Shown: piece after piece, positions 36,148-43,871 of the stretch | Layout: each line of letters opens with the position of its first letter | Position numbering within the stretch: position 1 is the first letter of the stretch | Origin: Desulfuromonadales bacterium | GTDB lineage: Bacteria > Desulfobacterota > Desulfuromonadia > Desulfuromonadales > BM103 | Reading direction: 5' to 3' | DNA length: 64,000 bases | Assembly (NCBI GenBank): GCA_030145195.1 | Contig: JAQYVY010000007.1 | Span: 1-64,000, forward strand | Made by a program: the position numbers and the translations under genes | The notes under the pieces: generated by a model | Told to the model about the DNA's origin: nothing | The model's input: only the letters and a program-made list of their open reading frames with translations | Database searches by the model: none

Positions 36148-36174
36148 AATTTGAACGGTGCTCTGCAACAACAC

Positions 36175-36208
36175 AAAGGCCACACCTCTTCTCAGGGGTG
36201 TGGCCTTT
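36175..36208. terminator. bidirectional terminator, first unit
   Basis: A perfect 12-bp stem AAAGGCCACACC / GGTGTGGCCTTT. It separates the convergent response regulator and the first peptide operon. Confidence 0.85.
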
Positions 36209-36282
36209 GTCTGTTCTGTGCGGAGGTTTTCAACCCCCTCTTGCAGCCTGTACATTGATAGGCAGACAGACTGCTAGCATTC

Positions 36283-36429
36283 TCAGGACATCATCTTGGA
36301 TCCGAGATACGCCAGAGCAGGCCATGCGATCAAAATAGCGGAGACGAAAGCAACGACACCGAGGACGCCCATGACGGCTACGGTGTAACTGGCTTTTACG
36401 GATTCGACGACTGTAGTTGCGTTTTTCAT
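36283..36429 (-). CDS. small membrane peptide A, copy 1 (48 aa)
   Basis: 48 residues starting MKNATTVVESVKASYTVAVM and ending LAYLGSKMMS. An amphipathic N-terminus precedes one membrane-spanning helix with GVLGVVAF, then AWPALAYLGSK. AGGGAG seven bases before the ATG is a good ribosome binding site. It is 27 of 48 residues identical to peptide B, the other gene of its operon, and its translation is identical to copy 2. No known family recognised; no leader with a double glycine. It could be a membrane-protein subunit, a signalling peptide, or a toxin-like peptide; none is shown. Confidence 0.75.
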   Translation of the reverse strand: MKNATTVVESVKASYTVAVMGVLGVVAFVSAILIAWPALAYLGSKMMS

Positions 36430-36491
36430 TGTTGTTCTCCCTGTGGTGTCCCCGCTTTTTGGGGGTGTTTGTTATTCAAAAAAGTGGTGTC

Positions 36492-36638
36492 TTAGTTGAA
36501 CAGTTTTGAGCCAATGTAGGCCAGTGCTGGCCAGGCAATTAGAACCGCCGAGATGAAAGCAAAGATGCCAAGAGCAGCAATAACCATCACCAGATAACTG
36601 CTTTTTACGGTATCCATAAAGCTAGTTTGAGTTTTCAT
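36492..36638 (-). CDS. small membrane peptide B, copy 1 (48 aa)
   Basis: 48 residues starting MKTQTSFMDTVKSSYLVMVI and ending YIGSKLFN, with the shared core FISAVLIAWPALAYIGSK. First gene after the promoter, with AGGAGG before its ATG. It shares length and the Y-x-V-x-V...LGxxAFxSAxLIAWPALAYxGSK pattern with peptide A, so the two arose by duplication. Only one span is predicted. Function unknown. Confidence 0.75.
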   Translation of the reverse strand: MKTQTSFMDTVKSSYLVMVIAALGIFAFISAVLIAWPALAYIGSKLFN

Positions 36639-37080
36639 AACGACCTCCTGTCGATTTGTTGTTTTTTCGTTCCTGATTGTAGCTAAACCTTAACATTAGA
36701 ATATTTTCATGTCAACAAAAAAGATTAAATTATTTTCATACAAGTGCGTTTTATTTGTAAGTCACCGTATTAAAAGATTATTTTAAAAATTAATTTTTCT
36801 GAAAACCCTCTGTGGGAATTTCTGCCCCAGGAGAAAGCGGTCATTTGGTCAGCAATTTGATCAATCACTGGTTGTAATTAGCCATGGCTAATGACGTTTT
36901 CTGGTAGACATTTGATAAATATAGGGTTGTTTTGCCCCGGTCTTGAGCCTTGGACAGAGCGGAAAGGTAGTTTGGCTGGAGTTGGTTTTTGGAGAAAGAT
37001 AAAATCCTCTTTAAAATTTGAAATAGGGCCTGTTTAATTTAAAAACAAGTCTTATCAACCTACCTTTGTAGAATGCAGCC
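36639..37080. other. intergenic region of the first duplicated unit
   Basis: 442 AT-rich bases with no gene. It holds the minus-strand peptide promoter, a 16-bp palindrome ATTAGCCATGGCTAAT (36877-36892), and near its right end a decayed copy of the regulator promoter (TTGAAA...TAAAAA) and operator (CAAGTCTTATCAA at 37046-37058). It aligns with 37634-38055. Confidence 0.7.
36687..36715 (-). promoter_or_regulatory. peptide operon promoter, copy 1
   Basis: TTGACA and TAAGGT with a 17-base spacer, 49 bases before the first ATG. The sequence is conserved at the same place in copy 2. Confidence 0.7.
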
Positions 37081-37173
37081 ATGCGGTGTGGTTTCATCAA
37101 TGCCTTCGAACTTGAGCACGAAGAAGAGGAGTTGCAGACATGGTTGAAAAGATATAAGGCTGGAATGGGATAA
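37081..37173 (+). pseudogene. duplicated tail of the response regulator, chimeric mini-ORF
   Basis: An ATG followed by RCGFINAFELEHEEEELQTW and LKRYKAGMG, then a stop: 30 residues almost identical to the end of the response regulator at 35401. The ATG sits where the start codon of the GntR-type gene would be in the second unit, so the mini-ORF joins that gene's start to the regulator tail. It marks the junction of a tandem duplication and is unlikely to be functional. Confidence 0.8.
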
Positions 37174-37200
37174 AGTTTCTACCTGAACTCAATATATACA

Positions 37201-37240
37201 GACAAAGGCCGCACCCTTCTAATGGGTCGCGGCCTTTGTC
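37201..37240. terminator. bidirectional terminator, second unit
   Basis: GACAAAGGCCGC / GCGGCCTTTGTC stem with inner ACCC/GGGT and one bulge. Counterpart of the hairpin at 36175, with several compensated changes. Confidence 0.85.
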
Positions 37241-37277
37241 TGTTCTGGTCGGAGGAGCTTAACCTCCGCTGGTATTC

Positions 37278-37424
37278 TCAGGACATCATCTTGGATCCGA
37301 GATACGCCAGAGCAGGCCATGCGATCAAAATAGCGGAGACGAAAGCAACGACACCAAGGACGCCCATGACGGCTACGGTGTAACTGGCTTTTACGGATTC
37401 GACGACTGTAGTTGCGTTTTTCAT
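37278..37424 (-). CDS. small membrane peptide A, copy 2 (48 aa)
   Basis: Protein identical to copy 1 at 36283. The gene differs by a single synonymous base (a Leu codon). The same ribosome binding site and spacing to peptide B are kept. Second gene of the second peptide operon. Confidence 0.75.
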   Translation of the reverse strand: MKNATTVVESVKASYTVAVMGVLGVVAFVSAILIAWPALAYLGSKMMS

Positions 37425-37486
37425 TGTTGTTCTCCCTGTGGTGTCCCCGCTTTTTGGGGGTGTTTGTTATTCAAAAAAGTGGTCTC

Positions 37487-37633
37487 TTAGTTGAACAGTT
37501 TTGAGCCAATGTAGGCCAGTGCTGGCCAGGCAATTAGAACCGCCGAGATGAAAGCAAAGATGCCAAGAGCAGCAATAACCATCACGAGATAACTGCTTTT
37601 TACGGTATCCATAAAGCTAGTTTGAGTTTTCAT
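37487..37633 (-). CDS. small membrane peptide B, copy 2 (48 aa)
   Basis: Protein identical to copy 1 at 36492, again with one synonymous base change (CTG to CTC, Leu). First gene after the second promoter. The preserved AGGAGG site and reading frame support expression of both copies. Confidence 0.75.
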   Translation of the reverse strand: MKTQTSFMDTVKSSYLVMVIAALGIFAFISAVLIAWPALAYIGSKLFN

Positions 37634-37681
37634 AACGACCTCCTGTCGATTTGTTGTTTTTTCGTTCCTGATTGTGGCTAA

Positions 37682-37710
37682 ACCTTAACATTAGAATATT
37701 TTCATGTCAA
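37682..37710 (-). promoter_or_regulatory. peptide operon promoter, copy 2
   Basis: TTGACA and TAAGGT with a 17-base spacer, the same as copy 1. Confidence 0.7.
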
Positions 37711-37993
37711 CAAAAAAGATTAAATTATTTTCATCCAAGCGCGATTTGTTTATAAGTGTATGTATTTAAGACGTTTTTAAAATTAATCTTTATTATACTC
37801 CCTCTGTAAGAATCCCGGCCCTAGGGGAGTGGAAGCGGACATTTGGTCAGGCATTGGCTTTTATTGATTATTGTTAATGGTGTTTTTAGGTAGACATTTG
37901 CCAAATATAGGGTTGTTTTGAGCCCTGTACAGAGCGGAAAGGTGGTTTGGAGGGGGTCGATTTTATTGGGAGCGAGAAAGTCCTCTTTAAGTT

Positions 37994-38035
37994 TTGAAAT
38001 GAGGCCCTGTTTATGTTAAAAATTGGTCTTACCAA
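37994..38035 (+). promoter_or_regulatory. promoter and operator of the FadR/LldR-type regulator
   Basis: TTGAAA and TAAAAA are 17 bases apart. Directly after the -10, TTGGTCTTACCAA (38023-38035) is a perfect TTGGT-N3-ACCAA inverted repeat, the form bound by FadR-branch regulators such as LldR and FadR. Its place over the start point suggests autorepression. Confidence 0.65.
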
Positions 38036-38055
38036 CTTACATTTGGAGAAAAGGC

Positions 38056-38784
38056 ATGACCATTGTTTTTGAGCCCATAAAACCAAAGAAGATTTCTGAG
38101 GAAATTGTTGAGCAGATCAAGGCACTGATTTCTCGCGGCAAACTCAAGCCCGGGGATCGGGTTCCTTCAGAACGTGAACTGGCCACCATGCTTGGTGTCA
38201 GCCGACCCTCGGTTCGAGAGGCGATCATGGTGTTGGAGGCGCTCGGTTTTCTCGATTCTCGTCAGGGCGGCGGAACCTTCGTGCGCGCTTTGACCCAAAC
38301 CAGCATTACTGACCCGCTCACCAGATTGGTCGAGGAGAATGATCCTGAGCTTCTGCGCGCTCTTGTTGAAGTCAGGATGGGGCTGGAAGGCTGGTCCGCC
38401 TATTTGGCCGCAAAGCGCGCAACCGAACAAGATCTTGCCGAGATGCAACGCCTTTATCGAATTATGGAAGAACAGGCAGCCAAAGGCGGTTGGGTTTCTG
38501 AGATAGATGCCGAGTTCCACTATGCAATCACTACAGCCAGCCACAACAGCCTGCAGATGCATGTCCTCGACTCCATTCACACCCTATTTCATACCACGAT
38601 CCAGGTGGCGCTCATGGAGTTCTATCAACAGAAAGGTCATGTGCAACGATTGCTCACCCAGCACCGTGAGATCATGGAAGCGATTGCCGCTCACGACCCA
38701 GAACTGGCTCGGCTGAAGATGATTGGACACTTGACTATGGTCGAGGAGAAGATGGCTGAATTGCTTAATGCGAGAAGTCGCTAA
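38056..38784 (+). CDS. FadR/LldR-type GntR regulator
   Basis: 242 residues from the ATG at 38056 (GGAG seven bases upstream). N-terminal winged helix: EEIVEQIKALISRGKLKPGD, RVPSERELATMLGVSRPSVREAI and SRQGGGTFV. The FCD effector domain from about residue 90 shows EVRMGLEGWSAYLA, DAEFHYAITTASHNSLQMHVL and AHDPELARLKMIGHL, with the His/Asp metal ligands. These regulators sense lactate, glycolate or related acids, which fits the lut operon next to it. Confidence 0.92.
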   Translation: MTIVFEPIKPKKISEEIVEQIKALISRGKLKPGDRVPSERELATMLGVSRPSVREAIMVLEALGFLDSRQGGGTFVRALTQTSITDPLTRLVEENDPELLRALVEVRMGLEGWSAYLAAKRATEQDLAEMQRLYRIMEEQAAKGGWVSEIDAEFHYAITTASHNSLQMHVLDSIHTLFHTTIQVALMEFYQQKGHVQRLLTQHREIMEAIAAHDPELARLKMIGHLTMVEEKMAELLNARSR

Positions 38785-38822: not shown

Positions 38823-39150
38823 TTAGCCTCTCGGCATTGCCATGCTGAGCAGTTCAGTCACATGGACTACCCGCTGTTGCATGCCCGCCTGTTTAAGTCC
38901 CCAGGCCAGTTGCAGATGACAGCCAGGATTAGCCGTAACCAGCAGTTCGGCTCCGGTTGACTGAACATTCTCAAGTTTACGTTCCAGGATCTGCTGACTC
39001 TCGAAGGTGTACTTGAGGCTGAAGGTCGCGGCGCTACCGCAGCACCAACTGGCCTCGCTCATTTCGCGGTAATCAATGCCTGGGATTGCTTTGATCAGGT
39101 CACGCGGTTGTTTGCTGATTCCCTGGGCGTGACAGAGATGACAGGGTTCT
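38823..39150 (-). pseudogene. truncated glcF-like (glycolate oxidase iron-sulphur subunit) gene
   Basis: Only the C-terminal cysteine-rich CCG part remains: PCHLCHAQGISKQPRDLIKA, then WCCGSAATFSLKYTF and VTANPGCHLQLAWGLKQAG up to a normal stop. The 4Fe-4S domain and the first CCG repeat are missing and the reading frame upstream (MFLPRHTTLIRV) is unrelated. The break lies about 50 bases from the lutC-like gene on the other strand, so acquisition of or rearrangement around the lut operon may have removed the rest. Confidence 0.75.
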
Positions 39151-39175
39151 GGAACCCGTATTAGGGTTGTATGTC

Positions 39176-39188
39176 TTGGTAAGAACAA
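39176..39188 (+). promoter_or_regulatory. FadR/LldR-type operator before the lut operon
   Basis: TTGGTAAGAACAA matches TTGGT-N3-ACCAA with one mismatch and lies 21 bases before the lutC-like ATG. Compare the perfect site at 38023. Confidence 0.5.
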
Positions 39189-39804: not shown

Positions 39805-41952
39805 ATGAATAAAGTTCGCGCCAAGGAATACCAGGTCCGCATAGATCATGCATTGGCGACGCCGAAATTGCAGGAGGCCCTACACAAATTCGGCGACGCT
39901 TTTCTGCTCGCCCGCGAAAAAGCCTTCAGCCAATATGATTTTGAGGCGTTGCGGCTAGCGATCGCCGACTGCAAGGATGAGGTGGCCGCACATCGCCAAC
40001 AGTATCTTGAGCAGTTCATCGCCAATGCCGAGGCCGCAGGCGCAACGGTTTACCAGGCCAAAACCGCCGCTGACGCCAACACCTATATTGCCGAACTGGC
40101 CAAGTCCAGAGGGGTCAAGCTGGCTGTCAAGAGCAAGAGTATGGCGAGTGAAGAGACCCATCTTAATAACGCTCTCAAGGGTGCCGGTGTCGAGGCGCTC
40201 GAGACCGATCTTGGCGAATGGATTATTCAGCTCGCCGGTCAGCGCCCCAGTCACATGGTGATGCCAGCGATCCACATGTTTAAAGAAGAGGTCGCGGAAC
40301 TGTTCAGTAAGGTGACCGGTAGCGAGGAACCTGCTGAAATCGAGCATCTGGTGCAGGTCGCTCGCGAGCAGTTGCGCCAAGGCTACCTCGATGCTGACAT
40401 GGGGATTACCGGGGCCAACATCGCAGTGGCTGAAACAGGCGGCATTGCCTTGATTACCAATGAGGGCAATGCCAGGCTGGTCTCGACCCTGCCGAAGATT
40501 CACGTCGCCCTGCTCGGGGTGGAGAAGATCGTACCGACCCTCGAGGATGCGGCGACCATCATCCGAACCCTGCCGAAGAACGCCACCGGCCAGTTGCTGA
40601 CCTCATACGTTACCTGGATCCGCGGCGCGGTTCCCTGTGGTGACGGTGACAAAGAGCTGCACCTAGTGCTGCTCGACAACGGCCGCAGTGCTCTAGCCGA
40701 GTCGCCGCAGTGCCGTGACGCACTGCGTTGTATCAAGTGCGGCGCCTGTGCCAACGTCTGCCCGGTTTATCAGACCGTCGGCGGCCATGTCTTCGGCCAT
40801 GTCTACATTGGTGCGATCGGCATCATTCTGACAGCTTTCTTTCACGGTTTGGACAAGGCCGCCGAGATCGTTCGCGCCTGCATCGGCTGCCGCGCCTGCG
40901 TCACGGTCTGCCCGTCGAACATCGATCTGGAAAATATCATTCTCAGTCTGCGTGAGACCATTGGCCACGAAGAGGGAATCGGGCTTGGCAAGTCGATCGT
41001 CTTCCGCAAGGTGATGCGTAACCGTAAACTGTTCCACAGCCTGATCCGGGCCGCCTCCATGCTACAGAAACCTGTTACCGGCGGGCAACGCACCATTCGT
41101 CATCTACCACTCTTCTTCTCTTCACTGACCGAGTGGCGAACGTTGCCTGCGGTCGCCGAAAAATCGCTGCGCGACCAGTGGCAAAAGATTCCACAGAAGA
41201 TCGAAAAGCCACGTTTCAAGGTCGCACTGTTTGGCGGCTGTGCCAATGACTTCCTTTACCCGGAACTCGGCATTGACCTGATCAAGGTGATGAATAAACT
41301 GGATGTCGAAGTCTCTTACCCGCTCGATCAGAACTGCTGTGGGGTGCCGGCTCTTTATTCAGGAGACAAGGAAACAGCCGTTGCGCTGGCCGAACAGAAT
41401 ATTGCCGCAATGCTCAAGGACGATCCTGATTTCGTCTTGACCACCTGTCCGACCTGCACCATGGCGTTGCAAAGGGATTTTGTCGAATTTCTCAAGGACA
41501 ATCCGGTTTGGGCTGCCAGGGCTGAGCATCTGGCAGAAATCACGGTTGATGCTGCCGGCTTCATCGTCAACCAGCTTGGTGCCGCCGAGGTCTTCAAAGG
41601 GGAGGCTGTCCCAGAAAAAGTCACCTATCATGACTCCTGTCATCTTAAACGCGGCGCAGGGGTCTGGAAAGAACCGCGCGAGCTATTGACAACCTCTGGA
41701 CTGGATTTGGTCGAGATGGAGCATGCTGATCGCTGCTGTGGTTTTGGCGGTTCCTATTCATTGACCAGTCACCCTGACATTTCCAAGCAGATTCTTGGCG
41801 ACAAGATCAGGGATATTGAAAAAAGCGGAGCCACCTGTGTCGCCATGGATTGTCCTGGCTGTATGCTACAGTTGCGTGGTGGGCTGGAGAAGCAGGAGAA
41901 AGACATACGCGTCAAACATACCATTGAACTGCTTGCAGAGGCCCTTAAATGA
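39805..41952 (+). CDS. fused LutB-LutA iron-sulphur oxidoreductase
   Basis: 715 residues. N-terminal LutB part with a LUD domain (GITGANIAVAETGGIALITN, YVTWIRGAVPCGDGD), then two 4Fe-4S binding motifs, CIKCGACANVCP near residue 310 and CIGCRACVTVCP near 360, and a LutA/CCG part with NCCGVPALYSGD, TTCPTCTMAL, YHDSCHLKRGAG and CCGFGGSYSLTSHP. This fused form is known from lactate-oxidising deltaproteobacteria. Together with the LutC-like protein it would oxidise L-lactate or a related 2-hydroxyacid. Substrate not proven. Ribosome binding site is only AAGGA. Confidence 0.93.
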   Translation: MNKVRAKEYQVRIDHALATPKLQEALHKFGDAFLLAREKAFSQYDFEALRLAIADCKDEVAAHRQQYLEQFIANAEAAGATVYQAKTAADANTYIAELAKSRGVKLAVKSKSMASEETHLNNALKGAGVEALETDLGEWIIQLAGQRPSHMVMPAIHMFKEEVAELFSKVTGSEEPAEIEHLVQVAREQLRQGYLDADMGITGANIAVAETGGIALITNEGNARLVSTLPKIHVALLGVEKIVPTLEDAATIIRTLPKNATGQLLTSYVTWIRGAVPCGDGDKELHLVLLDNGRSALAESPQCRDALRCIKCGACANVCPVYQTVGGHVFGHVYIGAIGIILTAFFHGLDKAAEIVRACIGCRACVTVCPSNIDLENIILSLRETIGHEEGIGLGKSIVFRKVMRNRKLFHSLIRAASMLQKPVTGGQRTIRHLPLFFSSLTEWRTLPAVAEKSLRDQWQKIPQKIEKPRFKVALFGGCANDFLYPELGIDLIKVMNKLDVEVSYPLDQNCCGVPALYSGDKETAVALAEQNIAAMLKDDPDFVLTTCPTCTMALQRDFVEFLKDNPVWAARAEHLAEITVDAAGFIVNQLGAAEVFKGEAVPEKVTYHDSCHLKRGAGVWKEPRELLTTSGLDLVEMEHADRCCGFGGSYSLTSHPDISKQILGDKIRDIEKSGATCVAMDCPGCMLQLRGGLEKQEKDIRVKHTIELLAEALK

Positions 41953-43064
41953 TCGACTACTGCGATAATCTGAGCAAAGCAACCGTTCGCGTCTCAAGGC
42001 CTGAGCTACTTACTATGGTCCGCCTGATTCGCCTGCTGGACCGACTCAGTCGTCATTCTGCCTATCGTGAGTGCGTTTATGCGAGCGTACCGGAGGTGGC
42101 GAGCTTCGACCCTGGCCATGACGCGGTGATGATGTGCTATGATTTTCATCTGACAGCAGAGGGCCCCCGACTGATTGAAGTCAACACCAATGCCGGTGGC
42201 GGCTTGCTCGCCTACTTGGCGCACCAACCTGTACAGAGTTCCCCTCTTGAGATCAATTCTAAGCTAAAAAATCGTTTGCTAGCGATGTTTAGCTCCGAGA
42301 TGCAACAGTTTTCTGGTGGCAAAAAGTCGAAACCAAACCGTATAGTCATCATAGATGAGACACCAGAGCAACAGTATCTCTACGGTGAGATGCAGGCCTT
42401 TGCCTCCCTGCTGACCTCCAGTGGGATTCCAACTGAAATCGCGGAACCGCATCAACTCAAGGCCGATGCGGACGGCATTACTCTCAATGGTGCCGTGATC
42501 GACATGATCTATAATCGTCACTGCGACTTTTATCTCGAAAGCGAGAATTTGGCCGGAGTCCGAAGCGCCTACCTCAATCACTCCGTCTGCTTAACACCGA
42601 ACCCGCACATGTATGGGTTATTAGCTGACAAACGCCGCCTGGTTCTCTGGAGTGACCCGGAGCTGATTTCTCAAATGTCATTATCCGCAACTGACCAGAA
42701 GTTGCTAACAGCTTGCGTGCCACCAAGCTTTTTGCTGGCAGATCTGAGCGGCGATGAAGTCTGGCGTGCGCGTAAGTCCTGGGTCTTCAAGCCAGTGACA
42801 CGATTCGGCAGTCGTGGCGTCTTGCTCGGTGCAAAGATAAGTCGTTCTCGATTTAATAAATTGTTGCCAGAAGAAACCCTGGTGCAGCAATTAGCCCTTC
42901 CGTCACTGACCGAAGTGCCCGAATACGGCTCGATGAAAACCGACCTGCGTCTCTATGCCTATCGCGGTAGGGTGCTGGGGGTCACTGCCCGTCTTTATCA
43001 AGGCCAAGTGACCAACCTCCGAACCCCCGGTGGCGGCTTCGCACCAATAAAAACGACTCTTTAA
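41949..43064 (+). CDS. ATP-grasp-like protein coupled to lutAB
   Basis: 371 residues; its ATG overlaps the lutAB stop (ATGA). It resembles ATP-grasp carboxylate-amine ligases: LIEVNTNAGGGLLAYLA near residue 75, a nucleotide-binding Lys in SWVFKPVTRFGSRGVLLG near 275, and the metal/ATP region MKTDLRLYAYRGRVLGVTAR...TNLRTPGGGFAPI at the end. No known family was recognised, and the position of the EVNTN motif before the FKP motif is unusual. The link to lactate oxidation is inference from coupling. It could make a peptide-like or amide product. Confidence 0.7.
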   Translation: MIDYCDNLSKATVRVSRPELLTMVRLIRLLDRLSRHSAYRECVYASVPEVASFDPGHDAVMMCYDFHLTAEGPRLIEVNTNAGGGLLAYLAHQPVQSSPLEINSKLKNRLLAMFSSEMQQFSGGKKSKPNRIVIIDETPEQQYLYGEMQAFASLLTSSGIPTEIAEPHQLKADADGITLNGAVIDMIYNRHCDFYLESENLAGVRSAYLNHSVCLTPNPHMYGLLADKRRLVLWSDPELISQMSLSATDQKLLTACVPPSFLLADLSGDEVWRARKSWVFKPVTRFGSRGVLLGAKISRSRFNKLLPEETLVQQLALPSLTEVPEYGSMKTDLRLYAYRGRVLGVTARLYQGQVTNLRTPGGGFAPIKTTL

Positions 43065-43202: not shown

Positions 43203-43871
43203 ATGGTTTTTGATTTTGAGTGTGAAAATGGTTCCCGCAATAAGTTGATACTGTCGCTGTCCAGCTTCGGAGGGCTCGCATTATTGCTCAGCGGCTACAC
43301 GATCAGTAGTAGCTATCTGTCGGTGTCCGGCTATGGTAGTTGGGGGGTCTCTGGTCAAGAGTTGGTCGTTTGGTTCAGCCTACTTGGTATAGCGATTATG
43401 GCTGTCTCTTTGGTCGTTGGATTGTTTTTTAGTAAAGCCCGGTGTACTTCCCTTGCGATACTACTCGGTTCCGGCCTGCTGGTCACGATGATCCTGATAT
43501 CCCTCAAGTGTGCCGACACCATCAGAATGGATGGTTTTCACCGTTTAACCCAGGAAGCAGGGCCTCTTATCACGGCAATCAATGCTTATGAGAAAAAAAA
43601 TGGTCATCCACCGCAAAGCCTGAAACAGTTGTCAACAGAGTCTCTTTCCAGAGACAACATCAAAGGTGGGGCCTTGCCAGAGTTCGACTATTATCCCGGT
43701 CCCCACGCTTTTGAGCGTTATCACGGAAACCCCTGGGTTTTGATATTACAAACCCCAACCGGTCCGTTAAAATGGGACATGTTTCTTTACTACCCGTTAC
43801 AAAACTATCCTACCTTAGGCCTCGGTGGTTGGTTTGAAAAGGTCGATGAATGGGCATATGTCCATGAATAA
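43203..43871 (+). CDS. membrane protein with pseudopilin-like soluble part
   Basis: 222 residues. Three hydrophobic spans in the first 105 residues (LSLSSFGGLALLLSGYTISS, LVVWFSLLGIAIMAVSLVVG, LAILLGSGLLVTMILISL), then a soluble domain starting LITAINAYEKKNGHPPQSLK, a pattern seen in pseudopilin and related proteins where the helix leads into a short loop domain. Ends GGWFEKVDEWAYVHE. No ribosome binding site is obvious. Family unknown. The gene stands alone. Confidence 0.6.
   Translation: MVFDFECENGSRNKLILSLSSFGGLALLLSGYTISSSYLSVSGYGSWGVSGQELVVWFSLLGIAIMAVSLVVGLFFSKARCTSLAILLGSGLLVTMILISLKCADTIRMDGFHRLTQEAGPLITAINAYEKKNGHPPQSLKQLSTESLSRDNIKGGALPEFDYYPGPHAFERYHGNPWVLILQTPTGPLKWDMFLYYPLQNYPTLGLGGWFEKVDEWAYVHE

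Follow-up and report, generated by a model that had tools for sequence, protein, structure and literature searches.

Genomic context of the ligase gene

What does a ligase gene do directly behind the genes of lactate oxidation? The question is raised by an ORF in the window, that is, the whole stretch of 64,000 nt analyzed here. This ORF (positions 41949-43064, forward strand) starts with ATG and encodes a protein of 371 aa. From the ORF, the family alignment, the AlphaFold2 model with its Foldseek matches, a permutation test and the co-occurrence with GCL, we annotate the product as a circularly permuted ATP-grasp ligase and candidate glutathione-type tripeptide synthetase. Its start overlaps by 4 nt the preceding gene, whose stop is the TGA of the sequence ATGA, as the first-pass annotation had reported. 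The preceding gene (39805-41952, forward strand) encodes LdhH, a LutA/LutB-type fusion of L-lactate oxidation of 715 aa, assigned by its match to NF045670 (997 bits, cut-off 800). Its upstream context comprises a LutC-like LUD-domain protein (PF02589; 39201-39773, forward strand) and, upstream of the lactate genes, a FadR/LldR-like GntR regulator identified by profile matches (38023-38784, forward strand).

Other features of the surroundings were also recorded. The reverse strand at 38823-39188 encodes 121 aa that represent a C-terminal remnant of a GlcF-like (CCG-domain) protein. Three relatives (L062, L068, and L094) carry complete glcF-like and glcD-like genes at this place, which suggests that a deletion removed glcD and most of glcF from the window genome. 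Downstream of the ligase gene (43203-43871, forward strand) lies a gene for a 222-aa membrane-type protein outside known families, retained in this position at five loci within the family of the window. The region 36148-38022 (about 1.9 kb) lacks ORFs of at least 80 aa on both strands, and tRNA and Rfam scans found no match there. Scanning the surroundings as a whole for Rfam families, tRNA genes and promoters yielded nothing useful.

The overlap in the window and the presence of lut genes near the ligase gene in 18 of 41 Desulfuromonadales loci (window included) would favor an ATP-dependent step of lactate or 2-hydroxyacid metabolism coupled to lutCAB, the tie that the first-pass annotation had proposed. 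LdhH/LutC genes were found within 1.3 kb of the ligase gene in 17 of the 40 further loci as well as in the window, and the linkage comprised every informative locus of f1, the family to which the window belongs (14 with the window counted), as well as three loci of family f5 and one of two in f17. One further locus, in f13, had the lut genes at 4 kb. Against this role, 22 of the 40 further Desulfuromonadales loci (two of them ending at contig ends) lacked lut genes near the ligase gene within the DNA examined, and so did all 25 loci of a mixed set from Magnetococcales, Beggiatoaceae, Methylococcales and some Desulfuromonadales. The lut order is inverted relative to the ligase gene at one locus (L071), and only the window genome shows the overlap, the ligase gene being separated or divergent from lut at the other lut-linked loci examined. 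Since only some Desulfuromonadales families show the linkage, and only the window the overlap, the position of the ligase gene behind lutCAB is best read as inheritance of a local neighborhood with no functional tie. The partnership with lactate oxidation was consequently rejected on gene neighborhoods, and we regard it as very improbable.

Further recurrent neighbors were lineage-limited, did not indicate any single pathway and were likewise set aside, among them a RadC-like protein. In family f8 (L016, L020, L081, L082, and L086) the ligase gene directly follows a LOG/SLOG-type (lysine-decarboxylase-like) gene on the 3' side, and in L016 the two overlap by 4 nt. In the Magnetococcales loci L003, L010, and L013 it overlaps a gene for an MFS_1-like transporter, preceded by a DUF2782 protein; the transporter is a possible transport partner of the ligase.

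Sequence family and predicted fold

The window protein had no match in Pfam, NCBIfam or the PDB sequences by phmmer and profile searches. Among 16 family members, ATP-grasp_3 was matched weakly by 14 (best 2e-7) and CP_ATPgrasp_2, also weakly, by six. The profile of eukaryotic GSS (PF03917) matched neither the window protein nor the 16 members, and a search with it of 13 genomes, that of the window included, gave nothing, the control genomes being unmatched too. Residues E77, N79, K281, D332, and R334 do not vary among the 70 distinct homologue sequences compared, so that the ORF is not a chance one. The motifs on which the first-pass annotation had relied are all present (EVNTNAGGG at residues 77-85, FKP at 280-282, DLRLYAYRG at 332-340, and GGGFAP at 361-366) and are invariant or nearly so across the same 70 homologues.

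An AlphaFold2 model of the window protein, built with 16 homologues as input, reached a pLDDT of 89 and a pTM of 0.89 and contains an ATP-grasp fold. Comparison of the model with the PDB by Foldseek gave 53 matches at E ≤ 0.001, and the 50 listed are circularly permuted ATP-grasp ligases. Human GSS (8fbz, 8.8e-15) is among the top matches. Those listed also include plant, yeast and trypanosome glutathione synthetases, homoglutathione synthetase, nematode GSS-like proteins (effectors), fungal Cp1B, YgiC/YjfC, GspS, trypanothione synthetase and the PF08886-type protein 3k1t. TM-scores were moderate (0.5–0.7), as for distant relatives.

The permutation was tested by rotating the family profile and aligning it by hhalign with a small GshB/RimK profile. 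Unrotated, the family profile aligned only in its C-terminal part (score 32.8, 90 columns), whereas the rotated profile aligned in both parts (score 43.8, 132 columns, E 3.3e-5). This result did not depend on which of five cut points was used, and ten column-shuffled control profiles scored between 9.9 and 18.8. In the rotated alignment K281, D332, R334, R348, D65, E77, and N79 stand opposite GshB K160, D208, R210, R225, D273, E281, and N283, with GshB numbers counted from that alignment. By eye, E77/N79, R190, K228, K281, and R348 were mapped to E144/N146, R267, K305, K364, and R450 of human GSS using segments from the PDB. The roles in metal and ATP sites follow those generally given for the mapped GSS and GshB residues.

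Four segments follow from these mappings. The N-terminal metal-site segment YDFHLTAEGPRLIEVNTNAGG (42141-42203, forward strand; D65, E77, N79), supported by invariance in the 70 homologues and the rotated alignment, corresponds to the C-terminal end of an ordinary ATP-grasp (GshB D273, E281, N283) and to QIEINTISASFGG of eukaryotic GSS. The segment DMIYNRHCDFYLE...ADK (42501-42632, forward strand), with the invariant residues R190 and K228, lies by eye opposite VVYFRDGY...GTKK (R267, K305) of human GSS. The putative ATP-binding lysine K281 and the Gly-rich loop are found in VFKPVTRFGSRGVLLG (42780-42830, forward strand), aligned with GshB K160 and with FVLKPQREGGGNN of GSS. Finally, KTDLRLYAYRG...ARLYQGQVTNLRTPGGGFAP (42936-43046, forward strand) holds D332, R334, R348, and the Gly-rich end, aligned with GshB D208, R210, and R225 and with RTK..DGGVAAG of GSS.

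Taken together, the model and the rotated alignment show that the predicted fold is that of a circularly permuted ATP-grasp ligase of the eukaryotic glutathione synthetase class. The ATP-grasp assignment of the first-pass annotation is therefore upheld by structure prediction, by weak profile matches of other family members and by the rotated alignment, and the unusual motif order that it had remarked on is explained by the circular permutation.

The best Foldseek matches, eukaryotic GSS and plant homoglutathione synthetase, have this permuted order in common with the window protein. Eukaryotic GSS and the window family alike have an N-terminal E-x-N motif, a KP Gly-rich loop and a C-terminal Arg with a Gly-rich loop. 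However, the window protein has about 14% identity with eukaryotic GSS, no PF03917 match and 371 aa against about 470. The Gly-rich loop differs as well: that of GSS (KPQREGGGNN) contains a metal-binding Glu, whereas the corresponding loop (KPVTRFGSRGV in the window protein) is free of acidic residues throughout the aligned members. With GshB (PF02951/PF02955), whose reaction is also proposed for the window family, the ATP-grasp core residues align after rotation; unlike it, the window family is permuted in motif order, has no direct sequence match with GshB and coexists with it in some genomes. CP_ATPgrasp_1/2 and the PF08886-type GshA (3k1t) are circularly permuted ATP-grasps as the window family is, but PF14403/PF04174 were matched weakly and by some members only, and the PF08886-type GshA is a first-step GCL; the Beggiatoaceae genomes carry both it and the window-family gene.

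Distribution and co-occurrence with glutathione genes

The ligase gene was found in 48 of the 58 nearest relatives and, within the order, in 100 of the 136 genomes searched, almost always as a single copy. It was not found in seven sampled genomes of another order of the same class, and elsewhere in the phylum there are a few distant family members only. Named carriers are Desulfuromonadales, Magnetococcales, Parabeggiatoa/Halobeggiatoa/Thioploca and Methylococcaceae. In a quick tree with many weak branches, the Methylococcales sequences formed one group and the Beggiatoaceae sequences another, both nested near those of Desulfuromonadales, a placement compatible with lateral transfer. Two genomes (G403 and G405) carry an in-frame TAG in the ligase gene. 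In locus L019 (4937-4939) it takes the position of a Gln codon (CAG in L020) in an otherwise intact gene, and it may represent either read-through or a recent nonsense change.

The same 136 genomes were searched for the ligase gene, GCS2-type GCL (PF04107) and GshB (PF02955, E ≤ 1e-25, a threshold that excludes RimK-type matches such as that of the window genome). Among the 84 Desulfuromonadales genomes of good quality (at least 90% complete, at most 5% contaminated), 65 had both the ligase gene and GCL, none the ligase gene without GCL, two GCL without the ligase gene and 17 neither. The association has a Fisher p of 7e-16, uncorrected for descent, and the 84 genomes are related, so the points are not independent. 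Thus, in good genomes the ligase gene occurs only alongside GCL (65/65) and is present wherever GCL occurs without GshB (52/52, window genome included); all exceptions to the pattern with GCL are in genomes below the quality cut. The two genomes with GCL but without the ligase gene (G029 and G030) both have GshB. Both are thus among the 15 good GCL-bearing genomes with GshB, an outcome that chance alone gives at about 0.05, so that the complementarity of ligase gene and GshB is weak. Joint absence of the ligase gene and GCL is scattered (among others in families f18 and f2, in G006 of f1 and in G387 of f8), and therefore several separate losses are likely. The first-pass annotation had mentioned cofactor or redox peptide synthesis in passing, and this suggestion agrees well with a gene that tracks GCL.

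In the window genome, which has RimK only and no GshB, the best match of GCL was TIGR01436 (409 bits, below the NCBIfam cut-off of 463). GCL lies elsewhere on the chromosome, not adjacent to the ligase gene. Both this separation and the low GCL score count against the second-step role proposed below. At three Desulfuromonadales loci (L116 463-5573, L118 3459-8539, and L120 3203-8891) GCL adjoins a PRK06855-type aminotransferase and, by eye, a transketolase-like protein, as a conserved trio.

Genomes outside the order were chosen as carriers of the gene and hence show its company, not an association. In them GCL is of different types: the Magnetococcales sampled have GCS2 and no GshB, the Beggiatoaceae sampled have PF08886-type GCL and, apart from one moderate match, lack GshB, and the seven Methylococcaceae sampled have PF04262-type GCL together with GshB. 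Accordingly, three unrelated GCL types accompany the ligase gene by lineage.

Proposed reaction and alternatives

A permuted GSS fold, a gene never found without GCL in good genomes and its constant presence where GCL occurs without GshB lead us to favor, with a probability of roughly 0.55, a ligase for the second step of glutathione-type thiol synthesis. We infer gamma-Glu-Cys as the predicted substrate, and likewise the acceptor and the product, which is likely GSH. In the proposed mechanism, gamma-glutamylcysteine would be made by the GCL of the genome, ATP would phosphorylate its C-terminal carboxylate, and the amine of glycine (or of a glycine-like acceptor) would attack the acyl phosphate, so that glutathione or a closely similar compound is formed. 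The ligase would in this way stand in for the absent GshB in most Desulfuromonadales, the Magnetococcales sampled and most of the Beggiatoaceae sampled.

Two observations go against the simplest form of this proposal. First, the ligase gene coexists with GshB in about 20 genomes, namely 13 of the 65 good gene-bearing Desulfuromonadales, which have all three genes, and the seven Methylococcaceae; this argues against a simple replacement of GshB. Second, GSH-type glyoxalase II (TIGR03413), or GloB, the one GSH-using enzyme examined in carriers, was absent from all 100 gene-bearing Desulfuromonadales genomes, which may count against a product that is purely GSH. It was present in 12 genomes lacking both the ligase gene and GCL, the opposite of the expected tracking. 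Family f18 (e.g., G375 and G376) shows this reverse pattern: TIGR03413 without GCS2-type GCL, strong GshB or the ligase gene.

Because of the coexistence with GshB and the distribution of glyoxalase II, we retain as a possible, clearly less probable, explanation that the ligase joins gamma-glutamylcysteine not to glycine but to a different amino acid or to an amine, giving a gamma-Glu-Cys-X thiol not yet described, while GshB, where present, makes GSH in parallel. The occurrence of the gene with GCL regardless of GshB and the lack of GSH-type GloB in gene-bearing genomes would fit such a product. So would the variation of acceptor among fold homologues, exemplified by beta-alanine for homoglutathione synthetase and by the YgiC/YjfC peptidyl-polyamine synthetases (PMC12568646). 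Nevertheless, most of the nearest structural matches use glycine as acceptor. That the family as a whole supplies Desulfuromonadales, Magnetococcales, Beggiatoaceae and Methylococcales with an undescribed low-molecular-weight thiol of this kind, alongside or instead of glutathione, is put forward still more tentatively.

A reaction after glutathione, in which GSH or another peptide would be joined to an amine, is the activity of GspS, YgiC, and YjfC, described as peptide-polyamine ligases in the same source (PMC12568646, citing Pederick 2023). These enzymes (PF03738) are among the Foldseek matches and have the fold class of the window protein. However, hhalign of the window family with E. coli YgiC gave only a short, non-significant stretch (E 0.21), and the association of the window family, in contrast to these ligases, is with GCL. 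Moreover, the 52 good genomes with GCL and the ligase gene but no GshB would lack GSH of their own making on which such a ligase could act. A role after glutathione is therefore unlikely, and synthesis of the tripeptide in the second step is preferred.

Both the fold and the type of reaction are known, and we rate as new the family with its predicted role. In the open-licence literature we found no described bacterial family of this kind, and no account of a glutathione synthetase for Beggiatoa or Desulfuromonas. Among genomes from anoxic and suboxic habitats, many contain the first enzyme of glutathione synthesis with the second unrecognised, and are annotated as having a pathway that is broken or ends at gamma-glutamylcysteine. 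Closing this gap with one family, so far without a name and present mostly in single copy, would alter what is inferred about thiol chemistry in Desulfuromonadales, magnetotactic cocci and large sulfur bacteria. The family is probably the second-step enzyme that has escaped recognition in many bacteria of the sulfur and iron cycles. If the proposed reaction is correct, bacteria would have a second way to carry out the GshB reaction, through a permuted enzyme that parallels the eukaryotic one.
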